DNA of 64,000 nucleotides, taken from contig CM067356.1 of assembly GCA_034190875.2 (NCBI GenBank), positions 60,169,208 through 60,233,207 of the forward strand. Direction: 5' to 3'. The DNA is from Urechis unicinctus (Eukaryota; Annelida; Polychaeta; Xenopneusta; Urechidae). Position 1 is the stretch's first letter. The number at the start of each line of letters is the position of its first letter. The translations under genes were made by a program, and so were the position numbers. This document shows, piece after piece, positions 13,518 to 30,621 of this stretch. The notes under the pieces were generated by a model, which saw nothing but the letters and a program-made list of their open reading frames with translations, did not search any database and was not told the DNA's origin.

Positions 13518-13965
13518 CTATAAATAACTTTGCCCTAAAACGATCAATGACGTCACCAGCCAGAGACAGGAAGCTGTCGCAGTTGATGGCGCGGCGTCCT
13601 CGAGGTGGGAATTGGGGTCGATTCGTGGAGCCCGGCGTCGCATCAGCATTTGGTTTTCCACAATAGAGTACTTCTCCCCGACCCCAAAGATCTGCATTTC
13701 TGACACTGTGGCCGGGGCGTTGAGAATTTCCCATGTGTGATGGCTAACGATTTTGGAGGTGTCAAAGCGACCGCGCCCACCAAGACCAAGCTTAAGGCGC
13801 TGAGCGTCCATGGTGAGTGAGCTGAATAAAATGGAACAGACAGGTCTGTCCTCGTCCACTTCCGTACGACAGCCGATACTCTCGCGGGTCTCTCGTACTG
13901 ACGTCACAGCCCCGTCATATTGCACCTGCACGCTAGTGTCATGGATCACTTCCGGTGGGGAAATG
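13518..13965 (-). CDS. LBD-IV exon C and C-terminus with GPI-like signal
   Basis: Opens [18 protein letters not shown], with [14 protein letters not shown] as a Cys-loop of ten intervening residues, then [15 protein letters not shown]. After the domain comes [16 protein letters not shown], a small-residue stretch AAPSTATAS and the hydrophobic [16 protein letters not shown] directly before a TAG stop. Small residues plus a short hydrophobic end with no cytoplasmic tail is the GPI-attachment pattern. A very short transmembrane anchor is the alternative. Confidence 0.8.
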
Positions 13966-28900: not shown

Positions 28901-30621
28901 AATTATTGCAATTATAGACGCTGTACTACTGCGGAGAATAGAGTCAATTATTGCAATTATAGACGCTGTACTGCGACGCTGTACTACTGCGGAGAATAGA
29001 GTCAATTATTGCAATTATAGACGCTGTACTACTACTGCGGAGAATAGAGTCAATTATTGCAATTATAGACGCTGTACTGTGTACTACTGCGGAGAATAGA
29101 GTCAATTATTGCAATTATAGACGCTGTACTACTGCAGATTCAATTATTGCAATTATAGACGCTGTACTACTGCGGAGAATAGAGTCAATTATTGCAATTA
29201 TAGACGCTGTACTACTACTGCAATTATAGAGTCTACTGCGGAGAATAGAGTCAATTATTGCAATTATAGACGCTGTACTACTGCGGAGAATAGAGTCAAT
29301 TATTGCAATTATAGACGCTGTACTACTGCGGAGAATAGAGTCAATTATTGCAATTATAGACGCTGTACTACTGCGGAGAATAGAGTCAATTATTGCAATT
29401 ATAGACAATTATTGCAATGTAGTCTACTACTGCGGAGAATAGAGTCAATTATTGCAATTATAGACGCTGTACTACTGCGGAGAATAGAGTCAATTATTGC
29501 AATTATAGACACTGTACTACTGCGGAGAATAGAGTCAATTATTGCAATTATAGACACTGTACTAATGCGGAGAATAGAGTCAATTATTGCAATTATAGTC
29601 ACTGTACTAGTTCGGAGAAAAGAGTCAACTATTGTAAATATAGTCACTGTACTAGTGCGGAGAATAAAGTCAACTATTGGAAATATAGTCACTGTATTAC
29701 AGCGGAGATCAGAGTCAACAATTGCAAATATAGTCACTGTACAACTGCAGAGAATAGAGTTAACTATTGAAAAATAGTCACTGCGGAGAAAAGCTTAGTC
29801 AATGCCATCGGCATTACAGTACGTCCCGACCAACGCCATCGTCATTACAGTTACGCCCTGATCAATGCCATCGGCATTACAGTACGTCCCGACCAATGCC
29901 ATCGTCATTACAGTTACGCCCTGATCAATGCCATCGGCATTACAGTACGTCCCGACCAATGCAATCGTCATTACAGTTACGCCCAGATCAATGTCATAGG
30001 CACTACAGTAACTTCCTTATCTATGTCAATCGTCCACTCACAATATCTGCAGTGGCCTCATTGTCAATTGCATTATTCGAATTCTCAGTGACGTCATTAT
30101 TCAAATCTATCGTCCACTCAACGAGTCTAGTGACGTAATTAAGTACGTCATTTCCTTCAGTGTCCGGTGACGTCAATACCTACATCAGCGTGCACTGACC
30201 GTTTCAAGTGGTCACAAAATATATCATCGTCTACAAAACATGTTAAGTGACGTCATTATATGCATCACTGTGATATAAATATTTATGTCACCATGACCAC
30301 AATTGTGCCAGTGACGTCATTACCTACAACGCCGTGCACCCACAGTTTCATAAGGCGTCATAATCTACGTCACCGTATAAATACCATTTAGAATGACGTC
30401 ATTATCCACGTCATCAGGCACTCACCATGTCTACCGTGGCGACCAGAGTAACGCTGTTCCTCTCCACGCTAACATCATCGACCTGTAGGATTTCCAAATC
30501 TAGTTGCACTGGTAAAGGTCGCGACGCGTCCTCTCCCGGTCGAGCGTCCACCCCTACGCGGTCGTATTTCTTGAGGAGAGTCTGCATCAGGCGCTGTTCG
30601 GCGTCGAGTGCAGCGAAGTTC
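13518..30621 (-). CDS. Tandem Cys-loop ligand-binding-domain protein, at least 4 LBDs, GPI-like tail (5' incomplete)
   Basis: Exons in transcript order are 30621-30426, 23760-23654, 23499-23167, 18017-17834, 17382-17276, 17132-16707, 16617-16437, 16343-16234, 15603-15262, 14872-14680, 14324-14215 and 13965-13518. They join in frame into 911 residues. Each A-B-C triplet encodes one nicotinic-type ligand-binding domain: exon A has the E-Q-R-L helix and strands 1-2; exon B has W-x4-L-x-W and a WxPD loop A; exon C has the V-S-x-D-G strand, the Cys-loop region and the remaining strands. No four-helix channel domain follows any copy. The last exon ends in small residues and a short hydrophobic tail, resembling a GPI signal. 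By analogy with molluscan acetylcholine-binding protein, an extracellular ligand-binding or scaffold role is inferred; the ligand is unknown. The first exon opens in phase 2, so upstream coding sequence is missing. Confidence 0.82.
14055..14215 (-). repeat. Donor-anchored ~37-bp repeat after LBD-IV exon B
   Basis: Read on the minus strand the intron opens gtaagcctccacatc. Three and a half further units repeat ataagccgtcacatctcttc. The unit begins exactly at the donor, but the later copies have AT in place of GT. Confidence 0.78.
14215..14324 (-). CDS. LBD-IV exon B
   Basis: 110 bp, phase 0-2, acceptor tttttcag. Reads [17 protein letters not shown] and LIWTPDV. The LRWDP..YGGI..LIW.PD string is almost the vertebrate muscle nicotinic receptor consensus and makes the family assignment firm. 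Confidence 0.9.
14370..14612. repeat. ~17-bp minisatellite
   Basis: About 14 copies of actgcttggctaatcacc and variants in the intron between LBD-IV exons A and B. Confidence 0.88.
14680..14872 (-). CDS. LBD-IV exon A
   Basis: Phase 2-0. Reads [17 protein letters not shown], then [17 protein letters not shown] and FAGRTVM, with donor atg/gtaagc. The E-Q helix start and strand 2 are conserved, less well than in the other copies. Confidence 0.8.
14900..15095. repeat. ~33-bp minisatellite
   Basis: Six copies around gagattacgatcactttgag in the intron between LBD-III and LBD-IV. Confidence 0.88.
15262..15603 (-). CDS. LBD-III exon C
   Basis: 342 bp, phase 2-2. Starts [18 protein letters not shown], with [12 protein letters not shown] as a Cys-loop of eight intervening residues, against 13 in channel receptors. 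Followed by [17 protein letters not shown]. The Trp usual in loop B is absent. Confidence 0.82.
15630..16078. repeat. Compound microsatellite
   Basis: Succession of (TA)n, (GATA)n, (GGAT)n and (GA)n with CAGA interruptions, inside the intron between LBD-III exons B and C. The long Ser-Leu and Arg-Glu ORFs on both strands are artefacts. Confidence 0.97.
16234..16343 (-). CDS. LBD-III exon B
   Basis: Acceptor atattgcag, phase 0-2, 110 bp. Reads [17 protein letters not shown] and [10 protein letters not shown], very close to the nicotinic consensus for strand 2, loop D and loop A. Confidence 0.87.
16437..16617 (-). CDS. LBD-III exon A
   Basis: Acceptor ttttacag, donor ctg/gtaaga, phase 2-0. 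Reads [15 protein letters not shown], then [19 protein letters not shown] and EFTAKAEL. The following 93-bp intron has no in-frame stop, so A and B read as one ORF. Confidence 0.82.
16707..17132 (-). CDS. LBD-II exon C
   Basis: Starts [19 protein letters not shown], then [17 protein letters not shown], and carries about 30 residues more than the other C exons in a Pro/Ser-rich segment. The first Cys-loop cysteine is missing. The 3' end at tc/gtatgc is chosen because it gives phase 2 and the right length; a nearby a/gtgagg would break the frame. Confidence 0.75.
17276..17382 (-). CDS. LBD-II exon B
   Basis: 107 bp, exactly the length of LBD-I exon B, phase 0-2. Reads [15 protein letters not shown] and [12 protein letters not shown] 13-bp phrase at 17308-17336 is duplicated inside it, giving [12 protein letters not shown]. 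Donor tc/gtaagg. Confidence 0.83.
17590..17834 (-). repeat. Donor-anchored 52-bp repeat after LBD-II exon A
   Basis: On the minus strand the exon ends cacagccgactg and the intron begins gtgagtactcccatctg. About 4.5 units of 52 bp repeat cacagccg, four variable bases, then gtgagt. Homology covers the last exon bases and the donor. Confidence 0.88.
17834..18017 (-). CDS. LBD-II exon A
   Basis: Acceptor tgttccag, donor ctg/gtgagt, phase 2-0. Reads [16 protein letters not shown], then [18 protein letters not shown] and [12 protein letters not shown] matches the strand-2 region of nicotinic LBDs. Confidence 0.83.
18018..18490. repeat. ~24-bp degenerate repeat
   Basis: From about 18100 to 18475 degenerate copies of ctccaccgtgacctcaccct occupy the intron 5' of LBD-II exon A. 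Confidence 0.75.
18715..18890. repeat. (CA)n microsatellite
   Basis: Imperfect CA/CACATA repeats with a short CG alternation near 18793. Cys-Val ORFs over it are artefacts. Confidence 0.96.
19195..21045. repeat. 70-bp minisatellite, about 25 copies
   Basis: Unit contains ggcagggtcatgtatagcta, ggtcatgtagttaacatc and taaccaatcattcactaag. The outer copies are shorter and lack the tatagctaggtcatg part, so the array grew from a ~55-bp unit by internal insertion or duplication of a gtcatg-bounded piece. Confidence 0.9.
21046..22380. other. Intronic stretch with short repeat
   Basis: Single-copy-looking DNA to about 21980, then seven copies of a 28-bp unit gagatgtccgtcgtgggaca to 22180. ORFs at 21539-21799 (+) and 21635-21955 (-) overlap each other and show no family signature. 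No exon is supported. Confidence 0.6.
22380..22990. repeat. 33-bp minisatellite with CRE-like core, about 18 copies
   Basis: Unit gtcatgagtaacctagctcc plus catatccaatgac. Unit junctions form tgacgtca, a CREB/ATF-type site, in more than ten copies. The 33-bp period keeps both strands open, giving artefactual ORFs. Confidence 0.92.
23167..23499 (-). CDS. LBD-I exon C
   Basis: 333 bp, phase 2-2. Starts [19 protein letters not shown], then [18 protein letters not shown] and ends NTATLR. Only the second cysteine of the Cys-loop is present; the first position reads in a [11 protein letters not shown] context. No vicinal cysteine pair of loop C is seen. Confidence 0.8.
23654..23760 (-). CDS. LBD-I exon B
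   Basis: 107 bp, phase 0-2, too short to appear as a long ORF. Reads [15 protein letters not shown], then RMWTPDVV. W-x4-L-x-W and WxPD are hallmarks of nicotinic-receptor LBDs (loops D and A). Acceptor gttgctag, donor at/gtaggc. Confidence 0.85.
24215..24560. repeat. ~40-bp degenerate repeat
   Basis: About eight diverged copies around gtttcatggttaccatgagg and caattgtggca in the long intron between LBD-I exons A and B. Confidence 0.82.
24590..29790. repeat. 45-bp satellite, roughly 110 copies (5.2 kb)
   Basis: Unit acgctgtactactgcggaga plus atagagtcaattattgcaattatag. It is homogeneous in the centre (26450-28900) and diverged at both ends. At 45 bp (15 codons) several frames stay open, so the Ile/Asp/Leu-rich ORFs on either strand are not genes. 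It fills the intron between LBD-I exons A and B. Confidence 0.96.
29791..30425. repeat. 63-bp repeat and CRE-like-rich stretch
   Basis: 29800-30005 holds 3-4 copies of a 63-bp unit with aatgccatcggcattacagt. 30080-30420 repeats gtgacgtcatta-type words (at least six) in a looser way, just 3' of the LBD-I exon A donor. Confidence 0.8.
30426..30621 (-). CDS. LBD-I exon A
   Basis: Acceptor gctttcag, donor atg/gtgagt, phase 2-0. Reads [18 protein letters not shown], then [16 protein letters not shown] and [11 protein letters not shown]. This is the N-terminal helix plus the first strands of a Cys-loop receptor LBD. Because it opens in phase 2 like every later A exon, another exon, perhaps another LBD, precedes it. 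Confidence 0.83.

Follow-up and report, generated by a model that had tools for sequence, protein, structure and literature searches.

A predicted chain of four nicotinic-type ligand-binding domains with no channel domain found, in the genome of Urechis unicinctus

The nicotinic ligand-binding domain (LBD) is known as a module that occurs once per subunit and works in rings of five. Can several copies be strung along one chain with no channel attached? This question is raised by a locus of Urechis unicinctus, in a 64,000-nt stretch of assembly GCA_034190875.2 (contig CM067356.1, 60,169,208 to 60,233,207, forward strand), the whole of which is called the window below. A first-pass annotation had joined twelve minus-strand exons of this window into a protein of 911 residues with four LBDs. 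The in-frame join and the four domains held up in our analysis, while the length came to 881 residues. We think it reasonably probable from the genomic sequence that the locus is one minus-strand gene for a secreted, membrane-tethered chain, which would consist of a signal peptide, four head-to-tail LBDs and a glycosylphosphatidylinositol (GPI)-like or single-span tail, without a channel. Running from 30621 to 13518, the twelve exons form a single in-frame join of 2647 nt with no internal stop and no frameshift, closed by a TAG at 13518. Each LBD is encoded by a set of three exons:

30426..30621, minus strand: LBD1 exon 1, helix 1 to loop D (spliced-exon reconstruction)
23654..23760, minus strand: LBD1 exon 2, with W-x4-L-x-W and WTPD (motif search and exon reconstruction)
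23167..23499, minus strand: LBD1 exon 3, with a phase-2 donor ahead of any first membrane helix, M1 (donor score 4.1)
17834..18017, minus strand: LBD2 exon 1, with a phase-2 acceptor (exon reconstruction)
17276..17382, minus strand: LBD2 exon 2, with WTPD (motif search and exon reconstruction)
16797..17132, minus strand: LBD2 exon 3, with the weak phase-2 donor CCCC/GTCAGT (donor score 2.0)
16437..16617, minus strand: LBD3 exon 1, 179 bp past LBD2 (exon reconstruction)
16234..16343, minus strand: LBD3 exon 2, with WNPD (motif search and exon reconstruction)
15262..15603, minus strand: LBD3 exon 3, with a phase-2 donor (donor score 8.7)
14680..14872, minus strand: LBD4 exon 1, 389 bp past LBD3 (exon reconstruction)
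14215..14324, minus strand: LBD4 exon 2, with WTPD (motif search and exon reconstruction)
13518..13965, minus strand: LBD4 exon 3, C-terminal hydrophobic tail and stop TAG (exon reconstruction and hydropathy)

The identity of the domains was addressed with motifs and with profiles. Stop-free matches to W-x4-[LVIMF]-x-[WF]-x10-26-W-x-[PA]-[DE] in the six frames of the window numbered four (23757, 17379, 16340 and 14321), and the minus strand carried every one of them; the W-x4-L-x-W followed by WxPD noted at first pass is present in every domain (WTPD, WTPD, WNPD and WTPD). Pfam Neur_chan_LBD (PF02931) matched all four pieces above the cut-off of the family (LBD1, 1.7e-21; LBD2, 2.7e-13; LBD3, 1.7e-18; LBD4, 2.2e-20), and no second family appeared in these pieces at E ≤ 1, the outcome that the first-pass annotation had expected from such a search. 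A profile made from the four domains necessarily matches them in the window, where it recovered only these 12 exons (E ≤ 2.5e-13; next best, 0.59); its informative part is the absence of others, including any further LBD in 80 kb of flank (50 kb on the 5' side and 30 kb on the 3' side; next best, 0.29), 10 kb of which are N (5 kb in flank piece L010 and 5 kb in L014). The relatives of the protein in PDB are acetylcholine-binding proteins (AChBPs) and nicotinic ectodomains, with AChBP chains and chimeras among the best matches.

The exon sets resemble one another in content and in phase. The first exon of each carries the first helix and strands, the second W-x4-L-x-W and W-x-P-D, and the third the remainder of the sandwich. 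All four sets have phase 2 before exon 1, phase 0 after exon 1 and phase 2 after exon 2, and the phase after exon 3 is 2 in the LBD1, LBD2 and LBD3 sets. Because this pattern repeats from set to set, LBD1, LBD2 and LBD3 each form a phase-2 cassette that is symmetric and so open to tandem duplication with the frame intact. AG is present at 12 of 12 acceptors and GT at 11 of 11 donors (23 boundaries), dinucleotides that are partly selected, as boundaries were picked near homologous positions; for this reason the repeated phases are the stronger evidence. Donor scores among the exons, obtained with a generic matrix made for this analysis, ranged from 2.0 to 10.2. GC contents of 0.592, 0.441 and 0.605 at the first, second and third codon positions make the composition of the spliced frame look coding-like. 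These features bear on whether the locus is a decaying cluster of old receptor genes whose frame is open by chance. Such pseudogenes would account for the two domains without one Cys-loop cysteine, for the two weak donors and for the long minisatellites in the introns. They would hardly account for 2647 nt in 12 exons free of stops and frameshifts, for splice dinucleotides and phases kept in four copies of only 20-34% mutual identity, or for coding-like composition, and we consider pseudogenes very unlikely.

The first-pass annotation had reported no membrane region after any LBD, and had named exons for M1-M4 helices between the copies as evidence against its reading. A membrane-domain profile, run over the window and the 80 kb of flank (N in 10 kb), found no exon for helices M1 to M3, either between the copies or behind them (best E, 0.37). 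The same search of other LBD loci of this genome served as a control: an M1 match lies at the C-terminal end of the LBD in 29 of 29 loci and in none of the four window domains. The E-values of these matches were 8.6e-41 to 4.2e-7 in 23 loci (L001-L008 and L017-L031) and 9e-17 to 5.4e-10 in a separate search of six (L032-L037). Six of the nine sequences from which the profile was built are control loci (L002, L003, L004, L005, L006 and L008) that match by construction, while L001, L007, L017-L031 and L032-L037 stood outside its building; L002/L003 and L020/L021/L024 appear to be near-copies. The 29 loci were examined among 196 LBD matches in this genome. L001-L008 were returned by the genome search with PF02931, and the 21 others (15 on contig C11 and 6 elsewhere) were chosen because the genome-wide PF02932 search listed no match nearby. 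As they come from the stronger PF02931 matches (150 of 785 candidates scored), among which the LBDs of the window are not listed, the controls lean to canonical receptors. The window is also absent from the listed part of the 161 matches of the genome-wide PF02932 search (150 of 781 candidates scored).

The control loci also allowed the cut points of the domain to be compared. Of the 29, 26 showed a separate match for the second LBD exon. In 24 loci its end fell at profile column 101 or 102, in one at 105 and in one at 111; the second-exon matches of the window end at column 101-102, as in most control loci. The LBD profile used here includes the window domains, which it matches by construction. 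It also extends to the first residues of M1, and for that reason part of its overlap with the M1 match in control loci is built in. The third part of the LBD is split into two pieces in L019, L034 and L037. Contig C11 has dozens of listed LBD matches yet none of the listed PF02932 matches; with our own membrane-domain profile, 15 of 15 examined places there carry an M1 match beside the LBD, and they look like diverged channels that the Pfam search missed or left unlisted.

What lies at the two ends of the chain bears on its secretion and attachment. Upstream, we propose one good candidate for a signal exon:

49924..49979, minus strand: candidate exon 1, encoding the putative signal peptide MLSTRWLIVTLCSTVFPD, with a phase-2 end and donor ACAG/GTAAGT, in frame with LBD1 exon 1

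This candidate ranks first of 33 rows (27 of which are one simple-repeat array) for the 53 kb 5' of LBD1, and its donor score is the highest among 11 candidates in 144 kb, counting both strands and any phase. At the other end, LBD4 is followed by a spacer, then by 17 residues that are more hydrophobic than any other such stretch of the 881 (mean hydropathy, 1.72), and then by the stop. Judged by eye and hydropathy, this tail follows small residues and has no basic end. It looks like a GPI signal, with a single-span anchor as the alternative.

Do all four domains belong to one chain? LBD2 and LBD3 are separated by 179 bp and LBD3 and LBD4 by 389 bp. The first-pass annotation had named separate signal peptides as a sign of separate genes; the search for signal-peptide exons found none in these two gaps, while the 5.1 kb between LBD1 and LBD2 do contain hydrophobic candidate frames. 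Since no signal exon was found in the short gaps, a three-LBD chain of LBD2 to LBD4 is the firmer prediction, and LBD1 as a separate gene is the main risk to the four-LBD model. In that case LBD1 would be secreted as an AChBP-like protein with a single LBD, its end lying at about 23133, and LBD2-4 would make up a separate three-LBD protein. This arrangement would suit the wide gap, the mediocre donor of LBD1 (4.1), past which read-through would stop about 12 residues on, and two hydrophobic ATG frames with phase-2 donors at 22426-22341 (5.7) and 18656-18439 (8.3). However, one of these two main frames starts within a minisatellite (22404-22980) and the other has a late hydrophobic core. The phase-2 donor of LBD1 exon 3 is placed as in LBD2 and LBD3 and seems to have no purpose except joining another module, the acceptor of LBD2 exon 1 is also phase 2, and LBD1 and LBD2 are mutually closest relatives. 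Two genes therefore seem to us unlikely, though far from negligible.

Several points weigh against the single four-LBD chain, which is a prediction from genomic sequence. Besides the mediocre LBD1 donor before a 5.1-kb intron, and the hydrophobic frames of that intron, which could in principle provide the signal exon of a second gene, the LBD2 exon 3 donor is weak and forms the soft spot of even the three-LBD chain. The candidate signal exon lies 19 kb upstream of LBD1, and it is one of six phase-2 candidates with a donor above 8 in 288 kb of strand, a density at which a chance occurrence in the search interval is not improbable. GPI attachment was judged by eye and hydropathy. The relationships among the domains count on both sides. 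In favor of the chain, LBD1-LBD2 (33.7%) and LBD3-LBD4 (30.8%) are the closest pairs, at mutual identities of 20-34% overall, and in a small tree of third exons with 15 rows (the four window LBDs, eight receptor loci of the same genome and three flatworm proteins) the four cluster with support of 77/89, and LBD3 joins LBD4 at 90/91. Against it, the tree program marked the fork that groups the four as weak and open, and branches are very long for LBD1, for LBD3 and for one of the flatworm rows. The tree agrees with duplication within the gene, short of proof. A protein database search with the full protein matched three flatworm proteins only, and neither the four-LBD alignment nor the LBD3-4 region had a match at E ≤ 0.001. 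These searches require shared 5-residue words and limit candidate length, so that distant tandem-LBD proteins could escape them, and those with the full protein and the LBD3-4 region scored the 7999 candidates with most shared words. They returned no relative with three or four LBDs and no channel.

Could the chain capture acetylcholine? The pocket was read by eye from alignments, with the usual names and positions of the loops. In LBD1 to LBD4, respectively, the loop A Tyr is replaced by S, L, L and L, the loop B Trp by L, Y, M and L, and the loop D Trp by T, H, K and R, and the cysteine list of the protein holds no vicinal cysteines in any domain. The aromatic box is thus lost in all four, on principal and complementary faces alike. 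By the Cys-loop spacing of the receptor family, none of the domains has a standard loop: one of the two cysteines is present in LBD1 and in LBD2, and the loops are shortened to C-x8-C in LBD3 and C-x10-C in LBD4. What LBD1 and LBD2 retain is the second cysteine, at the equivalent residues 145 and 353 of the spliced protein, where it could form a disulphide between domains or between chains.

Because these residues are lost throughout, channel gating, classical acetylcholine binding or an acetylcholine trap is unlikely. The first-pass annotation had suggested a multivalent ligand trap. Four LBDs on one tethered chain would raise avidity, and AChBPs bind ligands without a channel (PMC3423370). 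With both faces of the site gone in every domain and no vicinal cysteines, we regard a neurotransmitter trap as highly improbable; for acetylcholine the suggestion is weakened, and another ligand is possible. Loss of the pocket alone does not reveal a new function, since such loss is common among lophotrochozoan receptors: in oyster the principal site is complete in 13 of 33 alpha-type genes (PMC6896357).

The spacing of the domains suggests a shape. The N- and C-termini of an LBD lie on opposite faces of the domain. The linkers, counted by hand from the end of the last strand to the E-Q-x-L helix motif of the next domain, comprise about 12-14 residues and could span at most roughly 4.5-5 nm if stretched. 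The pentamers of one snail AChBP are 7-8 nm high (PMC3423370). With linkers this short for that height, and termini on opposite faces, neighboring domains of one chain could hardly stand side by side in one ring, and a head-to-tail rod fits better. On these grounds we disfavor the pre-linked ring suggested at first pass and set it aside. As the linkers allow only head-to-tail stacking, it is conceivable that five chains line up laterally, in contact through the interface that LBDs had ancestrally, and build a four-storey, channel-less, membrane-tethered column of stacked pentameric rings. This is a speculative and rather improbable arrangement. If true, a receptor ectodomain would have become a structural tower or a recognition tube of several layers, whereas the pentamers known to date are single, double or dodecahedral.

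We return to the tethered four-LBD chain and its possible origin. An LBD would have shed the channel portion and acquired a phase-2 donor just behind the final strand, and the resulting symmetric exon set would have duplicated in tandem. An upstream signal exon would supply secretion, and linkers this short would make the domains form a rod and not a ring. Such a rod has no channel to open and lacks the usual site for acetylcholine; on the cell surface its several domains may serve in recognition, adhesion or the organization of matrix. Most likely, we suggest, LBDs have been reused here in a recognition or matrix protein that is tethered to the membrane. A rival reading would make it a calcification or extrapallial matrix protein functionally related to molluscan ACCBP, an AChBP-family protein that acts in shell formation and not in signaling. 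The 11 N-glycosylation sequons of the window protein, and its lack of an acetylcholine pocket, would suit such a role. ACCBP is described as a glycan-rich di-pentamer of the AChBP family (PMC3423370), and a study of oyster reports two LBDs in each of two ACCBP-like proteins (PMC5379566). Yet ACCBP is not among the relatives in the protein searches, and no biomineral neighbor was recognized among the few neighboring frames tested; we hold this reading to be unlikely.

The surroundings of the locus include other genes and large repeats. The next recognized gene on the same strand in the 5' direction is NCBP3 (Pfam, 1.1e-14), whose frame, at L009 499-768 just past the window's end at 64000, bounds the LBD locus on that side. 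Acidic and RS-rich frames lie at 57.5-61k on the minus strand; Pfam found nothing in four that were tested, and those at 57.5-60.9k may be the 3' part of NCBP3. Beyond the window, at window coordinates 82.8-87.1k on the minus strand (L010 and L011), two near-identical frames about 2 kb apart resemble rhodopsin-type G protein-coupled receptors by eye. On the plus strand, beside the LBD gene, 105-6714 holds three sushi domains (105-350, 426-647 and 1575-1922) and an ephrin-receptor-like cysteine repeat (6376-6714), probably in one gene. The first LBD1 intron contains a very large minisatellite (24963-29769, 45 bp x 105), and two more lie between LBD1 and the candidate signal exon (34660-38089, 44 bp x 77; 43680-47864, 49 bp x 85).

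How new is this arrangement? If the prediction is true, the LBD has been freed from its channel as a duplicable exon cassette, present in four copies per chain. The gene would then show how a domain of neurotransmitter receptors can turn into a building block for general extracellular use, and it would test whether the fold needs a pentamer at all. The first-pass annotation knew of no described protein with this architecture. That does not hold for two-LBD channel-less gene models, which are in print; for chains of three or four LBDs without a channel, none was found in the literature searched, mostly outside subscription journals. The arrangement thus looks new beyond two-domain versions. In one study (PMC6896357), Table 1, which gives gene models only and does not break down genes "with other functional domains," lists one LBD-LBD gene and one LBD-LBD-TM (transmembrane) gene in B. 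platifrons and one LBD-TM-LBD-TM gene in C. gigas, with a maximum of two LBDs without a channel domain and three with one, against four in the window protein. The two oyster ACCBP-like proteins are channel-less like the window protein, have at most two LBDs, in an ambiguous sentence of a paper whose table gives the domain once, and come with no mention of a tether in the part available (PMC5379566); the protein searches did not recover them as relatives.

Two further systems are close. Of the two domains of a Cys-loop receptor, the locus has the LBD (PF02931), and the four-helix domain (PF02932) was not found in the window or its 80 kb of flank. Nicotinic-type receptors of the same genome likewise have an LBD in three parts, divided at the same points wherever these parts were seen, but have M1 at the end of the LBD in all 29 loci examined, whereas the window domains stop short of M1. 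With the AChBPs of molluscs and annelids the window protein shares a nicotinic-type LBD without a channel and, by prediction, secretion. AChBPs have one soluble LBD per chain, conserved site aromatics and pentameric assembly (PMC3423370), whereas the window protein combines four LBDs, none with the aromatic box, with a hydrophobic C-terminus.

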